The notes under the pieces are model-generated. The model saw only the letters and a list, made by a program, of their open reading frames with translations, was not told the DNA's origin and made no database searches. DNA of 37,301 nucleotides from an uncultured Bacilli bacterium. Its GTDB lineage: Bacteria; Bacillota_I; Bacilli_A; RF39; UBA660. A program made the position numbers and the translations under genes. The stretch's first letter is position 1. Each line of letters begins with the position of its first letter. The stretch is from positions 1 to 37,301 of the forward strand of contig CANRCV010000009.1 of assembly GCA_947629205.1 (NCBI GenBank). The letters run 5' to 3'. Shown piece by piece: positions 6,954 to 28,777 of this stretch.

Positions 6954-7037
6954 CAATTTTTATCTTTTTATGTTTTTTGGGGGGGTTTTGGTTGTATACA
7001 TTTCTCAAAAATCTATAAATGGAAAGGGTTGGTAGTT

Positions 7038-7124
7038 ATGAAAAAAGAAGAGTTACATTTTTGTATACTAGTTCTTCTAGTAATTATCGTTATGTTATTC
7101 GTAATAATACTACGTTTAATATAA
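7038..7124 (+). CDS. Putative type I toxin-like hydrophobic peptide, 28 aa: MKKEELHFCILVLLVIIVMLFVIILRLI
   Basis: RBS GGAAAGGG 9 nt upstream of ATG; single TM; own promoter; convergent antisense RNA. Confidence 0.65.
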   Translation: MKKEELHFCILVLLVIIVMLFVIILRLI

Positions 7125-21416: not shown

Positions 21417-21541
21417 TTACATGTCCTCCTTTCGCCTATATCGAGTATAGACTAGCTCCGTACAAATTCCCTGAATTCTAAATTTTGTTTTAACAACTCA
21501 ACCTAGTGTATCAGCAACCTCGCACATCCAAGCCGTCATAC
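21417..21541 (-). promoter_or_regulatory. Long 5' leader of the S10 operon (candidate autoregulatory leader)
   Basis: About 125 nt, GC-richer than neighbouring intergenic DNA, ending ..TATAGGCGAAAGGAGGACATGTAA-ATG. Confidence 0.5.
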
Positions 21542-21548
21542 GAAATCA

Positions 21549-21577
21549 ATTATAGCAATATATTATATGAAAATCAA
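21549..21577 (-). promoter_or_regulatory. S10 operon promoter TTGATT-17-TATAAT
   Basis: -10 complement at 21549-21554, -35 complement at 21572-21577. Confidence 0.7.
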
Positions 21578-21598
21578 GTATAAATTTGCACAAATACC

Positions 21599-21628
21599 CA
21601 AAAAAAGAAGAGGCATCCACTCTTCTTA
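21599..21628 (-). terminator. Terminator downstream of cassette 1
   Basis: AAGAAGAG / CTCTTCTT arms, T run on minus strand (Ts also on plus side, possibly bidirectional). Confidence 0.8.
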
Positions 21629-21651
21629 TTGTTTTTTTGTTAATAAATAGA

Positions 21652-22143
21652 TTAATCTTGATCTTCCGCTGTAAGATTTATTTTTTGACAAGTATAACCA
21701 GATTGTTCTAATTCATGTAAATAACTTTCTTCATAATATTCATAATTTCCTTGTATTGTACTTAATGTATAAGAAAGACTTAAGGTACTATTATCTTGTA
21801 CAATATTTTCAGGTATCCAGTTTAATTCATTTGTTACATAAGAATAGTAATAATTTAAATCATTCAAGTTTTTAAAATAACATGTTTGTCTATAAATATC
21901 TGGAGAAATAGCATTGTCCGTTCCAATATAAAATGAATAATCTTCTACAATTCGATATGAAAGGTTAGCAGCTTCATAAACATAATCTCCTTCTTTAGAA
22001 CAAGATATTCTCTCCGTAACAGTAGAATCGGTTGGAAGATTATTTTTTACTTTCTTATCTTTTTTTTGCCATATAAGTACCCCTTCAACTAAAAGGACAA
22101 AGATTAGTAACAGTATTAAAATCAAAATAGTACGTTTTTTCAT
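21652..22143 (-). CDS. Small membrane-anchored partner protein, cassette 1 (start corrected)
   Basis: MKKRTILILILLLIFVLLVEGVLIW TM; paralogous to 23781-24290. Confidence 0.7.
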   Translation of the reverse strand: MKKRTILILILLLIFVLLVEGVLIWQKKDKKVKNNLPTDSTVTERISCSKEGDYVYEAANLSYRIVEDYSFYIGTDNAISPDIYRQTCYFKNLNDLNYYYSYVTNELNWIPENIVQDNSTLSLSYTLSTIQGNYEYYEESYLHELEQSGYTCQKINLTAEDQD

Positions 22144-22151
22144 TTCACACC

Positions 22152-23681
22152 TCACCAACCACATCCATTAGGACAAGGTCCACAACGCTCACAGCAATGG
22201 TTTTTAGCATAAGATTGTCCAGGTTGACAGGAACCATAACATGCTGAATTTTTAGAACCAGGAGTTTGTTCACAACAAGAACATGTACTAGAACCTCCGC
22301 CGCCTCCACCGGAACTTTCACATGGGCTAGTATGGCAAGAGGTTGACTCTGATCTGGATCCACAAGTAAAGCCACTACCAAATGTACTATAGTAGGTTAT
22401 GGTTCTTGATTTTGATCCTCCTCCACAAGATTTACTACAACTTCCCCATGAGCCATAGCTTTCACGATAAGAGGTACATTTATCTACATAAACATCAACA
22501 TCTTTATTACAAGTCGTTTTATTTCCAGCTTTGTCTTCGATATCATAATTCCAATTATCAGTTTTGGTATTACTATTATAAATTTTCGTTATTTCGTTTT
22601 GTAATACACATCCACTTTCCTCATCCTTACATGCAAGAGTGATAGTTCGATCACTTTTGGTCCATGTTGTAGATTCTCCCGTCCAAATACATTCTGGTGC
22701 CGTTTTATCTACTTTTTCTATTTTTATTTCTTTACTACTTATATCTTCAGCATAATTTCCAGCTTTATCTTTTACACAGATATAATAAGTTCCATTATCA
22801 AGAGTGGTTTCATAATTATTGCTATCTTGTTCAATATAGACAACTTTAGTACAATCACTATCTTTTCCTATATAATATCCACCGATTCCAGAACCATTTC
22901 CATCACTTGCTGTTGCACTTACTTTTTTATCAGTATTGGTCCATTCATGTTCTTTTTCGATTTGTACCTCATAAATAACCGGTTTTTGTTTATCAATTCT
23001 TACCCAAACACTGGCTTGGTAACTTACTCCACCGTCTGTTTCTACTATAACAGTATAGTTGGTATTAATAATTTGTTCCGCACTAACTAAGTATTCATCT
23101 TTATTTGTAGTATCTCTTGAAACATTAGATTGCCATGTAATCGTTTTAATGGATTCGTTTTTTAAATCTTCATTTAACACTGCTTTTAAAATTACATTTT
23201 TATTGGTCCAACTATTATTTTCTATTTTATTTCCTTTCGTAACATTATCATTTGTTTCATAAACCTCTATATTTAAATTTAAATTTTTAATAGTTAAATT
23301 GCTTACTTCGCATTCTTCTTCATTAGAATATCTTCCATACAAATTATCGTTATCCCTCTCAATATTAACGATATGACAATTTAGGTTTTCTCTAGTAATA
23401 GGATTATAAACATTCCCTTCTTCATCATCAGCATCAATATATCCTTCTTTTACTAAAGTATCTACATTGGTAAGAAGATTTCCTGTATCAGTAGCATAAT
23501 TCGCAGCTTTAGATTCAATATAACTGATTAAGTTTTCATAAGCTTTTTCTTTTAAATTTTTTTGGATAGCATTATAACCACTCATCGCTATAGTGGTTAT
23601 AATAGCAAGTAAAACAATAACTGCTAATAATTCTACTATCGTAAACCCTCTTTGTTTGATTTTCATAATTATTTTTCTCAT
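22152..23681 (-). CDS. Prepilin-type protein with Ig-like modules, TSP1-like repeat and Cys-rich tail, cassette 1 (start corrected)
   Basis: KQRGFTIVELLAVIVLLAIITTIA; two DKAGN modules; WGSCSKSCGGGSKSRT; 10-Cys tail. Confidence 0.8.
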   Translation of the reverse strand: MRKIIMKIKQRGFTIVELLAVIVLLAIITTIAMSGYNAIQKNLKEKAYENLISYIESKAANYATDTGNLLTNVDTLVKEGYIDADDEEGNVYNPITRENLNCHIVNIERDNDNLYGRYSNEEECEVSNLTIKNLNLNIEVYETNDNVTKGNKIENNSWTNKNVILKAVLNEDLKNESIKTITWQSNVSRDTTNKDEYLVSAEQIINTNYTVIVETDGGVSYQASVWVRIDKQKPVIYEVQIEKEHEWTNTDKKVSATASDGNGSGIGGYYIGKDSDCTKVVYIEQDSNNYETTLDNGTYYICVKDKAGNYAEDISSKEIKIEKVDKTAPECIWTGESTTWTKSDRTITLACKDEESGCVLQNEITKIYNSNTKTDNWNYDIEDKAGNKTTCNKDVDVYVDKCTSYRESYGSWGSCSKSCGGGSKSRTITYYSTFGSGFTCGSRSESTSCHTSPCESSGGGGGGSSTCSCCEQTPGSKNSACYGSCQPGQSYAKNHCCERCGPCPNGCGW

Positions 23682-23709
23682 TTCTTTCTTTCCTATTCTT
23701 CTACATTTG

Positions 23710-23738
23710 ATTATAACTATAGAATAAATAAGTGTCAA
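23710..23738 (-). promoter_or_regulatory. Consensus promoter of cassette 1: TTGACA-17-TATAAT
   Basis: -10 complement at 23710-23715, -35 complement at 23733-23738. Confidence 0.8.
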
Positions 23739-23740
23739 TT

Positions 23741-23775
23741 AAAAAAAAGAAAATAATCTTTTAAGACTACTTTCT
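23741..23775 (-). terminator. Terminator downstream of cassette 2
   Basis: Minus AGAAAGTAGTC-TTAAAA-GATTATTTTCT (two G-U pairs) then T8. Confidence 0.7.
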
Positions 23776-23780
23776 TCTAA

Positions 23781-24290
23781 TTAATCATCTACAGGTATTT
23801 CTGTTTCATCACATTGATATTCCATTGCTCTTTTTAATTGTTCAACATATGCATCACTATATTCTTTTATATCTCCTTGTAAATTTCTTACATAACGGAC
23901 AATTGTTAAATCTTCTTCATTTTTTTGATAATTTGGATCCGTTAAACTTATATCCCATTTATTAGCCATAGAAACATAATAAGTATTTAAATCATTTAGA
24001 TTTGAAAAATAATAAGTCATGGCATATATATCTGGAACAAGTTTATTATTACTATCTACATAAAAAGCATAATCGCTAGTAAAATTGAAAGTAATATTGG
24101 TATCTTCATCTACTATGTTATCTAAATGTTTAGAGCAAGAAATTCTTTTTACTAATTCTGTAGAATCTGTAGGATTTGAATTTTCAATAGTTTTTTCTTC
24201 TTTCTTATTAAAATGCGAGAAAAGAATTTCTCCAAAAACAATACATAGAATAAGAAAAATAGAAATAATGATAATTTTATTTTTTTTCAT
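23781..24290 (-). CDS. Small membrane-anchored partner protein, cassette 2
   Basis: MKKNKIIIISIFLILCIVFGEILF TM; shares PTDST..RISCSK and NLNDLN.YY motifs with 21652-22143. Confidence 0.7.
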   Translation of the reverse strand: MKKNKIIIISIFLILCIVFGEILFSHFNKKEEKTIENSNPTDSTELVKRISCSKHLDNIVDEDTNITFNFTSDYAFYVDSNNKLVPDIYAMTYYFSNLNDLNTYYVSMANKWDISLTDPNYQKNEEDLTIVRYVRNLQGDIKEYSDAYVEQLKRAMEYQCDETEIPVDD

Positions 24291-24314
24291 TTCAATAATA
24301 TCTCCTTATAACTA

Positions 24315-25832
24315 TTAAGGGTATGGACAATTACACCAATCACAACATGGTCCATATTTTCCACCAGTTGCTCTTGTTTCTGGATCATCACAACATCCCC
24401 AGCATGAAGAGGAACCATCTTTTTTGCAAGAACGGCCTCCGCCGCCTCCGCTGCTTCCGCCACTACTTGAGCCACTATCACTTTCACATGGGCTAGTATG
24501 GCAAGAGGTTGACTCAGATCTTGATCCACAAGTAAAGCCACTACCAAATGTACTATAGTAAGTTATTGTTCTTGACTTATGTCCTCCTCCACAAGATCTA
24601 CTACAACTTCCCCATGATCCATAACTTGCACGTGTGGAGGTACACTTATCTACATAAACATCAACGTCTTTATTACAAGTCGTTTTATTTCCAGCTTTGT
24701 CTTCAATTTCATAATTCCAATTATCTGTTTTCGTATTACTATTATAAATTTTCGTTATTTCGTTTTGTAATACACATCCACTTTCCTCATCCTTACATCC
24801 AAGAGTGATAGTTCGATCACTTTTGGTCCATACTGTAGATTCTCCCGTCCAGATACATTCTGGTGCCGTTTTATCTACTTTTTCAATTTTTAATTCATAA
24901 TGGCTTACATCTTCTGTATAGTTTCCAGCTTTATCTTTTACACAGATATAATAAGTTCCATTATCAAGAGCAGTTTCATAATTGTTGCTTTCTTGTTCAA
25001 TAAAAGTTGCTTTTGTACAATCTTGTTCATTTCCTACATAATATCCACTTATTCCCGAACCATTGCCATCACTTGCACTAATATTTAGTTTTTTGTCTTC
25101 TTTTACCCAATCATTTTCTCTTTCGATTTGTGCCTCATATATAACAGGTCTTTGTTTATCTATTTTTACTACGACACTTGCTTGATAACTGACTCCACCC
25201 TCAGTTTCTACTATAACAGTATAGTTGGTATTAATGATTTGCTCTGCACTAACTAAATATTCATCTTTATTCGTTGTTTCTCTTGCAATATTAGATTGCC
25301 ATGTAATGTTTTTAATGGGTTCGTTTTTTAAATCTTCATTTAACACTGCTTTTAAAATGACATTTTTATTGGTCCAACTATTATTTTCTATTTTATTTCC
25401 TTTCGTGACATTATCACTGGTTTCATACATTTCTATATTTAAGTTTAAATTTTTAATTGTAAGGTTTGTGGTCTCACATTCTTCTTCATTCGAATATCTT
25501 CCATATAAATTATCGTTATCCCTCTCAATATTAACAATATGACAATTTAGGTTTTCTTTTGTAATTGGATTATAAACATTCCCCTCTTCATCATCAGCAT
25601 CGATATAACCTTCTTTAACTAATGTATCGACATTGGTTAGAAGATTACCTGTATCAGTAGCATAATTTGCAGCTTTGGATTCAATGTAACTGATTAAGTT
25701 TTCATAAGCTTTTTCTTTTAAATTTTTTTGAATAGCATTATAACCACTCATTGCTATAGTGGTTATAATGGCAAGTAAGACAATAACGGCAAGTAACTCT
25801 ACTATCGTAAATCCTCTTTGTTTTCTTTTCAT
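24315..25832 (-). CDS. Prepilin-type protein with Ig-like modules, TSP1-like repeat and Cys-rich tail, cassette 2
   Basis: MKRKQRGFTIVELLAVIVLLAIITTIA; WGSCSRSCGGGHKSRT; 8-Cys tail; close paralog of 22152-23681. Confidence 0.8.
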   Translation of the reverse strand: MKRKQRGFTIVELLAVIVLLAIITTIAMSGYNAIQKNLKEKAYENLISYIESKAANYATDTGNLLTNVDTLVKEGYIDADDEEGNVYNPITKENLNCHIVNIERDNDNLYGRYSNEEECETTNLTIKNLNLNIEMYETSDNVTKGNKIENNSWTNKNVILKAVLNEDLKNEPIKNITWQSNIARETTNKDEYLVSAEQIINTNYTVIVETEGGVSYQASVVVKIDKQRPVIYEAQIERENDWVKEDKKLNISASDGNGSGISGYYVGNEQDCTKATFIEQESNNYETALDNGTYYICVKDKAGNYTEDVSHYELKIEKVDKTAPECIWTGESTVWTKSDRTITLGCKDEESGCVLQNEITKIYNSNTKTDNWNYEIEDKAGNKTTCNKDVDVYVDKCTSTRASYGSWGSCSRSCGGGHKSRTITYYSTFGSGFTCGSRSESTSCHTSPCESDSGSSSGGSSGGGGGRSCKKDGSSSCWGCCDDPETRATGGKYGPCCDWCNCPYP

Positions 25833-25852
25833 CTATGATCAACTCTATTTTA

Positions 25853-25882
25853 ATAATACCCCCCCCCCGATGGCTTTGTCAA
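25853..25882 (-). promoter_or_regulatory. Candidate phase-variable promoter of cassette 2: TTGACA-18 (includes G10)-TATTAT
   Basis: -10 complement 25853-25858, C10 at 25859-25868, -35 complement 25877-25882. Confidence 0.7.
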
Positions 25883-25883
25883 C

Positions 25884-25913
25884 AAAAAAACGCAATTTTA
25901 AGTTTGCGTTTTT
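25884..25913 (-). terminator. Terminator of the cadherin-like surface protein gene (possibly bidirectional)
   Basis: AAAAACGCAA / TTGCGTTTTT arms with A/T tracts on both sides. Confidence 0.75.
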
Positions 25914-27258
25914 ACCTTTTCTTTTTAATAAAACTTAGTACAATTACAAGACCTAGAATACAATCAAAAATAGATAATGTTTTAATCCAAAAATCTTGTT
26001 TATCGATTTGTTCTTGTTGTTCTTCTATTTCTGTATCTTGTTCTTCCATAAATGAATTATCCTCAACTTGTTCTTCTTCAATTATAGTATTATTTGTATT
26101 TGGTAAATCTTCTTCTACAACAAAAGATTCCATTGGTACTGTTTCTTCTTGTGTTGTTTGTGTATTTTTATTTGTTGTAGTAGATGTTGATGATGTAACA
26201 GTTGTTTTCTTTTTAGAAATACTACTTTCTTGTTTCGTTGGAACAAAAAAATCTGTGGTATCAATCTCTTCATCATGTACGATTAAAAAGACATAAGAAT
26301 TTTTTGTAATTCCATCATCTGCTATGATGGTAAGTGTACATGAGGTAGTTGCATTTCCAACGTTACATGCATCACTTGTATGACTTTTTTTATCACTATT
26401 CGTTATAAAAGTAAAATACAACTTTTGTGTTGTTTTTCCTACTTTTACAGAATACACCTTTTTATCTGGTTGAAACGAAGGAGATAAGATACCTCCATGA
26501 ACCACTAAGTTCGAAATACTAGCATCATTAGAAGCAATTTTATTATTTTCATATTTTCTCGTTACAGTTACGGTATATGTTTTTTGATTTCCAGCTTCTG
26601 CAGCAATGACAATTTTACACAAATTCACTCCTGGATTTAAAGAACAAGTAGTTCCAGAAATGACTTTAGCATGAGTACCATTTGGTATAGCATTCCAAGT
26701 AATAGAACGAACTTGATTTTCAACGGTCATGCTATATAGTTCTAAAGAAGAATCAAAACTTGGACTTAAAGAACCAACATTTGGTTTTAAACTTTTTAAA
26801 GAGGCATCTTTACTTTTACTACAAGTTTTATTAAATTCACTTTCTAAAACAAGAGTACCATTTTCTCCAAAAAAGTTACCATATATATCTTTCATACAAG
26901 TATTATAATTATAACTTACTTTAGGTAAAGAATATCTACTATTATCATGCATCGTGACCTCTATAATAGCAATGGTATAATTACCACTAATAGCACCATC
27001 ATGATAAAAATAAAATTCATTATTTGTACCTGTTTTATTTATCCAATTGGATTGCATCGTAATACGACTGATCGATCCATTGGTTATATTAAAAGTACCT
27101 TGAATCGTATTTAATTTCATATCTTGAATTGTTAGAGCAAATTCATAAGTTGTTGCACTTGTTTTTTTTGAATCTGTTAAAGAAATACTAGATGCATGAA
27201 CCCTATTACATGCTAAAAACAAACAAAACAAAAATACAACAAATTTTAACCTTTTCAT
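25912..27258 (-). CDS. Secreted, C-terminally membrane-anchored protein with tandem cadherin-like beta-sandwich repeats
   Basis: Signal peptide; two related modules (DASLKSLKPNVGSLSPSFDSSLELYSMTVEN / DASISNLVVHGGILSPSFQPDKKVYSVKVG); C-terminal TM and KKKR. Confidence 0.65.
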   Translation of the reverse strand: MKRLKFVVFLFCLFLACNRVHASSISLTDSKKTSATTYEFALTIQDMKLNTIQGTFNITNGSISRITMQSNWINKTGTNNEFYFYHDGAISGNYTIAIIEVTMHDNSRYSLPKVSYNYNTCMKDIYGNFFGENGTLVLESEFNKTCSKSKDASLKSLKPNVGSLSPSFDSSLELYSMTVENQVRSITWNAIPNGTHAKVISGTTCSLNPGVNLCKIVIAAEAGNQKTYTVTVTRKYENNKIASNDASISNLVVHGGILSPSFQPDKKVYSVKVGKTTQKLYFTFITNSDKKSHTSDACNVGNATTSCTLTIIADDGITKNSYVFLIVHDEEIDTTDFFVPTKQESSISKKKTTVTSSTSTTTNKNTQTTQEETVPMESFVVEEDLPNTNNTIIEEEQVEDNSFMEEQDTEIEEQQEQIDKQDFWIKTLSIFDCILGLVIVLSFIKKKR

Positions 27259-27271
27259 TCTAAATTCCCCC

Positions 27272-28777
27272 TTATTTTATTAATAAACTTTCACTATCCT
27301 TCATTTCTTTTGGTTTTGCAATATCCATATAATCTAAAATGGTCGGTGCTACATTGGTTAAATCTCCCTCTTCTTTTAATTTAATTGCATCATCTACAAT
27401 GATAAATGGTACTTTAGCAAGTGTATGTGTCGTAATTGGTTCTTTTTGTTCATTATACATACAATCCGCATTTCCATGATCTGCTAATACAATAACTTTA
27501 TAAAAATTATTTTCTGCTTCTTCTATAAGTTTACCTAAACATAAATCAACGGTTGTAACAGCATTAACAGTAGCATCAAAGTTTCCTGTATGTCCTACCA
27601 TATCGGGATTTGCAAAGTTTAAAAATATAAAATCAATATCTTTTTCCATACAAGCAATACATTTTTTCGTTACCTCTACAGCACTCATTCTTGGATCTAA
27701 ATCATACGTTTTGATTTTTAAAGATGGAACTAATATTTTAGTACAATTTTCAATTGGTCCATCATATTCTCCATCAAAAAAGTAAGTGACATGAGCATAT
27801 TTTTCTGTTTCAGCAATTCTTGCTTGAGTAAGACCTAAATTGGATAAATAAATTCCTAAAGGATTTTCTATTTTTTGTTCTTCTAAGAAAACTTTAGTAG
27901 GAATGGCTTTATCAATAGGTACAAAAGAATAGATATCTAAGTTACTAAATTTAGTAACTGGAAAGTTATTATACTCTAGATTTGTAAAACAATCAAGTAT
28001 TTGTTTAGCACGGTCCGTACGATAATTCATCCAAAATAGAGCATCTCCATCACGAATAAGACCATCTTCTTCTAATAAAATAGGAGCCAAGAATTCATCG
28101 GTAATTTGTTTTTGATAACAAGCTTGAATAGCCGTTTTTGCTTTTTCAAACTTATTTCCTTTTCCTTTAACAATTAAATTGTAGTATAATTTCGTTCGAT
28201 CAAATTTATGATCTCGATCCATGGCATAATATCTTCCACATAAAGTAGCTATTTTTCCTACTTTTGTTTGTTTTAAACGTTCTTCTAATTTTTCTATATA
28301 AGAATAAGAACTCGTAATACTTGTATCTCTTCCATCTGTAATTAAATGAAAATAAATTGATTTTATACCATTTTTTAGAAGATGGTCATAAAGTTTAAAA
28401 AAATGTTCCCAATCAGCATGAACTCTACCATCACTAAATAAACCAATTATATGGACACGTTTATTGGTATCTTTATATTTTGCAACAAATTGTTTAAAAA
28501 GTTCATTTTCTTCTATCGTTTCATCTAAAAATTCATGAATTCTCGTTTCATTTTGAATTATTTTTCTGCCTGCTCCAATCGTCATGTGCCCTACCTCACT
28601 ATTTCCAAATTGATTCGGTAGTAATCCAACTCTTTGTTCACTAGCATATAAAAGAGAATGTGGATAATTTTCCCACAAAGTATTAAAATTTCTTGGATTT
28701 GCTTCTATAATTGCATTTCCTAACTTTTCTTCTCGATAGCCAAAACCATCTAAGACAATTGTTAATATTTTTCTCAT
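27272..28777 (-). CDS. gpmI: 2,3-bisphosphoglycerate-independent phosphoglycerate mutase
   Basis: VLDGFGYRE, FGNSEVGHMTIGAGR, VLADHGNAD. Confidence 0.95.
   Translation of the reverse strand: MRKILTIVLDGFGYREEKLGNAIIEANPRNFNTLWENYPHSLLYASEQRVGLLPNQFGNSEVGHMTIGAGRKIIQNETRIHEFLDETIEENELFKQFVAKYKDTNKRVHIIGLFSDGRVHADWEHFFKLYDHLLKNGIKSIYFHLITDGRDTSITSSYSYIEKLEERLKQTKVGKIATLCGRYYAMDRDHKFDRTKLYYNLIVKGKGNKFEKAKTAIQACYQKQITDEFLAPILLEEDGLIRDGDALFWMNYRTDRAKQILDCFTNLEYNNFPVTKFSNLDIYSFVPIDKAIPTKVFLEEQKIENPLGIYLSNLGLTQARIAETEKYAHVTYFFDGEYDGPIENCTKILVPSLKIKTYDLDPRMSAVEVTKKCIACMEKDIDFIFLNFANPDMVGHTGNFDATVNAVTTVDLCLGKLIEEAENNFYKVIVLADHGNADCMYNEQKEPITTHTLAKVPFIIVDDAIKLKEEGDLTNVAPTILDYMDIAKPKEMKDSESLLIK

Follow-up and report, generated by a model that had tools for sequence, protein, structure and literature searches.

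A promoter in the AT-rich DNA of an uncultured Bacilli bacterium carries ten consecutive Gs between its -35 and -10 elements, which raises the question of whether this run is a fixed spacer or a genetic switch. The promoter lies on the minus strand of the whole stretch of DNA that was analysed (37.3 kb, referred to as the window) and precedes the second of two neighboring pilin cassettes. We regard it as highly likely that the G10 tract is a contingency locus, situated in the -35/-10 spacer of the cassette 2 pilin promoter and slipping to alter transcription.

Direct reading of the minus strand from 25882 to 25853 gives TTGACA-AAGCCATC-GGGGGGGGGG-TATTAT, where GGGGGGGGGG is the G10 tract. The spacer is 18 bp long, with 8 mixed bases followed by the 10 Gs, in full agreement with the first description. 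The promoter region contains the following features.

25886..25913, minus strand: intrinsic terminator of the upstream Cadherin-like-domain gene (hairpin, reported by the scan on the plus strand, and RNA fold).
25877..25882, minus strand: -35 element TTGACA (direct reading and promoter scan; the same hexamer is found in the same place in the paralogues).
25869..25876, minus strand: non-repetitive 8-base part of the spacer, AAGCCATC (direct reading).
25859..25868, minus strand: G10 tract, the proposed slippage-prone part of the spacer (direct reading, run search, and shuffles).
25853..25858, minus strand: -10 element TATTAT (direct reading and scan; TATTATTAAAATAGAGTTGAT is identical in the tract-free paralogue on contig C20).
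25833..25852, minus strand: 20 bases between the -10 element and the start codon, an ATG at 25832 (direct reading).

Folded as minus-strand RNA, the terminator has an energy of -9.4 kcal/mol (z -3.1) and is followed by seven Ts that abut the -35 element. Transcription of cassette 2 would start near 25846 and give a short leader, roughly 14 nt long; direct reading of 25833..25852 shows no strong Shine-Dalgarno sequence. In a simple scan of positions 21500-27400, the promoter matches 11 of 12 consensus bases and ranks second among the sigma-70-like sites, after the paralogous promoter of cassette 1 (23738-23710). An open reading frame that spans the tract on the plus strand (25835-26296) was taken as spurious, because it is antisense to the Cadherin-like-domain gene and has no support.

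The tract is as conspicuous as the original prediction held. No other run of at least eight G or C is present in the window, and neither a G10 run nor the composite pattern TTGACA-G8+-TAT occurs in 100 dinucleotide-preserving shuffles. The next-longest run is a G7 at 6979-6985 on the plus strand, with a possible hydrophobic ORF of 28 aa downstream at 7038, and it is perhaps a short or decayed tract.

The genes and the second promoter of the two cassettes are arranged as follows.

24315..25832, minus strand: target gene, a type IV pilin-like surface protein of 505 aa (with a prepilin motif, repeats, and, at the C terminus, a TSP1-like motif).
23781..24290, minus strand: second gene of cassette 2, a small single-membrane-segment protein of 169 aa (no family match).
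23710..23738, minus strand: tract-free promoter of cassette 1, TTGACA-17 bp-TATAAT (with its own hairpin and T run upstream).
22152..23738, minus strand: cassette 1 pilin paralogue, 84% identical to the cassette 2 pilin (listed with a TTG start).

The 505-aa protein has a prepilin methylation motif, scoring 30.7 bits against a Pfam cut-off of 21.2 for N_methyl (PF07963), and the genome contains three matches to T2SSE/PilB-family ATPases. Of the earlier designation as a TSP1 pilin, the pilin N terminus stands, but the TSP1 domain falls below the Pfam cut-off of 41 bits, with scores of 22.8 (TSP1_spondin) and 24.5 bits. The solved structures listed as matches in the PDB are all TSP1-bearing proteins or constructs, and these matches are weak (best E 0.005). 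The protein is predicted to be surface-exposed. Scanning the collection of named genomes with the pilin gave no relative. The 169-aa gene is probably co-transcribed with the pilin gene, and cassette 1 and contig C20 show the same order, a pilin followed by a small single-membrane-segment protein. The hairpin upstream of cassette 1 folds with -18.5 kcal/mol (z -5.6); because the listed TTG start of its pilin falls inside the -35 box, the true start is probably near 23666.

The third pilin paralogue, encoded on contig C20 after ileS, matches over the first 324 residues (85%) and departs at the C terminus. About 324 N-terminal residues are thus common to the three paralogues (window 22152-25832 and L120:656-2502), and of their differing C termini two are TSP1-like and one is not. 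The C20 promoter reads TTGACA-AATATTGTACTTGCAAGG-TATTATTAAAATAGAGTTGAT, compared with TTGACA-AAGCCATC-G10-TATTATTAAAATAGAGTTGAT in cassette 2. The hexamers, the downstream bases, and the 18-bp spacing are identical, and the C20 copy is without a tract. Pilin orthologues in other species have promoters of the type TTGACA-17/18-TATAAT at the same place. These matches establish the position of the cassette 2 promoter and indicate that 18 bp is a natural spacing for this type of promoter. It had been suggested that the loss of one G would give the optimal spacing of 17 bp. The arithmetic is correct, and tract-free promoters in the DNA examined do peak at 17 bp (22 sites, with 10 sites at 18 bp and 5-6 at 16 and 19 bp), but the tract-free C20 paralogue uses this core promoter with an 18-bp spacer, which makes it probable that G10, as assembled, is an active state.

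Most orthologues of the cassette 2 pilin in the genus have tract-free promoters, and a conserved switch shared at the pilin locus was therefore rejected. The poly-G switch would be local to the cassette 2 copy and to one homologue in genome G018, which has its own poly-G between TTGACT and TATGAT with a spacing of 15 bp (L122:4579-4625). This suggests an independent gain.

The tract of cassette 2 is one of many in its genome. The single assembly analysed for this species (1.05 Mb, AT-rich, 45 contigs) contains 43 runs of at least nine Gs, with lengths of 9 to 11 and mostly 10, and three classes cover all but one of them, the exception being on contig C3 near 36272. The first class lies in promoter spacers. 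Seven sites match the strict pattern, namely cassette 2, one site on C10, a G8 on C26, two on C39, and two on C41, and an additional, less clear site on C4 precedes a GNAT acetyltransferase. At least five of these eight targets have a secretion or pilin N terminus. The second class is a family of membrane-anchored proteins (MKKKNKNLPTLDSSLGGG...) present in 28 copies, with the tract in codons 15-18. The tract is G9 in 7 copies, G10 in 20, and G11 in 1; since in-frame lengths are multiples of three, G9 alone among lengths 8 to 11 is in frame, and 7 of the 28 copies are in frame as assembled. The family looks like a large ON/OFF surface repertoire. Its copies are distributed over the genome as listed.

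Genome G000, contigs C1, C4, C6, C10, C12-C14, C16, C17, C19, C20, C25, C27, C32, C34, C36-C38, C40, and C43; loci L031, L036-L039, L041-L056, L058, L060, and L061: about 28 copies of the membrane-protein family.

Tracts similar to those of the family are also present in named relatives (L140, L141, and L147). The third class comprises nucleotidyltransferase and putative glycan-locus genes on C3, with seven intragenic tracts, six of them in frame as assembled. Six of the seven are in the putative glycan locus itself (G000:C3:41-53 kb, L034), five in frame and one, a G9, out of frame; the other is in a nucleotidyltransferase-like gene near this locus (C3:13942, L032). Judged from consensus assemblies rather than from cells, the coding and the promoter class both appear biased to the low or off state, the coding tracts being mostly G10 and out of frame and the promoter tracts having a modal spacer of 19 bp (see below). 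Loss of mismatch repair was considered as the driver of the tracts and rejected, because MutS is present in this genome and in 20 of the 22 genomes of the genus. To our knowledge, epsilonproteobacteria are without MutS-type mismatch repair.

Promoters with poly-G spacers recur widely in relatives. The pattern TTGAC-N-G7+-N-TA is found in 19 of 22 genus genomes, and the strict promoter pattern in 22 of 147 genomes of the family, a sample with nearly one genome per genus. Further out, the strict pattern was found in 56 of the 289 order genomes and in 25 of the 298 class genomes, where several other families are positive. The reversed pattern, used as a control, gave zero matches in every genome of the genus, family, order, and class sets. 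Relatives identified via the neighboring phosphoglycerate mutase are uncultured Bacilli, Tenericutes, and Erysipelotrichaceae gut MAGs with rabbit, mouse, and rumen sample names. A loose pattern that permits spacers from 8 bp up to 38 bp or more returned 117 sites in 28 genomes, and 93% of these sites have a spacer of 15-20 bp, with a mode of 19; the 28 genomes were chosen partly for having matches, so these figures describe sites and not frequency. In one relative (L137, G048:C25), five secreted-protein genes in a row each have their own poly-G promoter, with tracts of G8 to G10.

The lengths of the tracts differ between copies with identical flanks. In genome G155, a single identical flank is joined to G9 eight times, to G10 six times, and to G11 once, so that only the number of Gs differs. 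Identical-flank copies have 14, 14, 15, 15, and 16 Gs in G311, and 10, 10, and 11 Gs, twice over, in G247. Differences confined to the number of Gs are as predicted for slippage. Between species the tract is retained while its surroundings change. Orthologues of an ABC-transporter ATPase are present in 14 species and have a poly-G promoter of G9 to G11 in seven; among these seven, the nine bases separating the -35 position from the tract have diverged, and in the sequence adjoining the tract, conservation is limited to the tract and the two hexamers. Other pairs of orthologues have G10 and G8, or G9 and G10. Retention of the tract while neighboring bases change argues for selection on the tract. 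Because G-runs recur with changing lengths in dozens of promoters and surface genes of relatives, the G10 run is very probably a slip-prone genetic switch, and the comparative evidence from the genome, the genus, and the seven species lends good support to the original reading of a phase-variable promoter.

An alternative is that the tract is a fixed functional spacer, one that binds a regulator, gives the DNA a stiff or G-rich shape, or weakly seeds a G-quadruplex, and does not slip as a switch. All 117 promoter tracts have G on the non-template strand, and no promoter spacer with a C tract was found in the 28 genomes searched; a pure control of spacing needs no such bias, and the modal length of 10 in many species also fits a fixed element. 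This strand preference is an observation that spacing alone does not explain. We nevertheless consider a fixed spacer unlikely, since tract lengths differ among identical-flank copies of one genome and between orthologues, and since the same tract occurs within reading frames, where the frame is the only thing on which it can act. The narrow conservation beside the tract, limited to the tract itself and the two hexamers, speaks against a bound regulator site or other fixed element as well, and a lone G10 does not have the length that a normal quadruplex requires.

A still less probable explanation is that the tract does slip and the expression of the gene barely changes, either because spacers of 16-19 bp all work or because another promoter dominates, which would make the tract a neutral hypermutable site. 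Tract-free promoters of these genomes do commonly have spacers of either 17 or 18 bp, and some poly-G promoters of relatives are followed by a second, tract-free TGTTATAAT. At cassette 2, however, reading and the scan found no further good promoter in the stretch from the terminator to the ATG, and the confinement of spacers to 15-20 bp together with the retention of the tract across species argues for selection on spacing. That the G10 is a sequencing or assembly artefact (for example, two-color poly-G) is hardly credible, for although the assembly is a metagenome-type draft of 45 contigs with some tracts near contig ends, the tract has unique sequence on both flanks, the same precise context is found in many assemblies from different projects, and the control patterns give zero.

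In the slip-prone switch that we favor, slipped-strand mispairing during replication would add or remove single Gs at a high rate. Each change would move TTGACA and TATTAT by 1 bp relative to one another and alter the recruitment of the housekeeping RNA polymerase, so that the spacer would pass through 16, 17, 18, and 19 bp and transcription would follow. G9 (17 bp) and G10 (18 bp) are expected to be strong to moderate, with G9 equal to or stronger than G10; G8 (16 bp) and G11 (19 bp) would be weak, and longer or shorter tracts nearly off. The switch would act on the pilin gene and the small membrane-protein gene downstream, since a terminator closely precedes the promoter and cassette 1, which comes next, has a terminator and a fixed promoter of its own. 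The benefit may be a mixed population that shows or hides an adhesin or antigen to a host, a phage, or a competitor.

The mechanism is already known, and the host clade and the scale appear to be new. Homopolymer-slippage phase variation has mostly been studied in Gram-negative pathogens and spirochaetes, whereas uncultured gut-associated Bacilli with small genomes seem to have dozens of poly-G contingency loci in each genome, with pilin-like adhesins, secreted proteins, the 28-copy membrane-protein family, and glycan genes as apparent targets. In a literature search that did not extend to preprints and most subscription journals, no relevant account of poly-G switching turned up for RF39-like or other uncultured gut Bacilli; because of this partial coverage the result is weak evidence of novelty. 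If true, such switching would imply a strong cell-to-cell heterogeneity of the surface that is hidden in bulk metagenomes and directly measurable from existing reads, and it would matter for phage resistance, for IgA coating, and for consensus MAGs, which fail to separate ON from OFF genes. A more speculative possibility, which we put forward tentatively, is that this clade of uncultured gut Bacilli has a large, mostly default-low poly-G surface switchboard, with independent settings, through promoter spacing or reading frame, for tens of genes in each 1-Mb genome. On this view, the strict non-template placement of G would have its own mechanism behind it, such as slippage linked to transcription or a preference of the polymerase, and would not be a matter of passive spacer length alone.

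Among known systems, the closest parallels are promoters with a transcription-controlling poly-G in the -35/-10 spacer and an optimum of 17 nt, as in porA and tp0126 (PMC3899988, PMC5320596, PMC7864442). The cassette 2 promoter likewise has a homopolymer between the hexamers, a tract of at least about eight Gs (ten), and a spacer within 16-19 bp (18 bp), and the N_methyl prepilin domain of the encoded protein, together with the T2SSE/PilB-family ATPases, points to a surface protein as the target. In the porA promoter of Neisseria meningitidis, a poly-G separates -10 from -35 (van der Ende 1995, as cited in PMC5320596, PMC3899988, and PMC7864442). The likeness extends to G on the coding strand and, as predicted for cassette 2, to one-base shifts around 17 bp and a surface-protein target; the host lineage (Bacilli) and the gene are unrelated, and the TTGACA/TATTAT hexamers are near consensus. 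In Treponema pallidum, transcription from the promoter of tp0126, an OmpW homologue, is reported to be best at a total spacing of 17 nt, and related poly-G tracts vary from 7 to 11 Gs in vivo (PMC7864442). The poly-G is again between -35 and -10, but its target is an outer-membrane protein of a spirochaete and not a pilin-like gene of an unrelated gut bacterium. The fetA promoter of Neisseria has a poly-C spacer (PMC5320596). There a homopolymer spacer changes promoter strength, as is proposed for cassette 2, with C on the coding strand in contrast to the G of cassette 2 and of the 28 genomes, in which no C-type spacer was found. Campylobacter has translational poly-G contingency genes (PhasomeIt, PMC6321876), and the presence of many poly-G loci in one small genome parallels the 28-copy membrane-protein family and the glycan genes, whereas the cassette 2 case is transcriptional and belongs to a genus that carries MutS.
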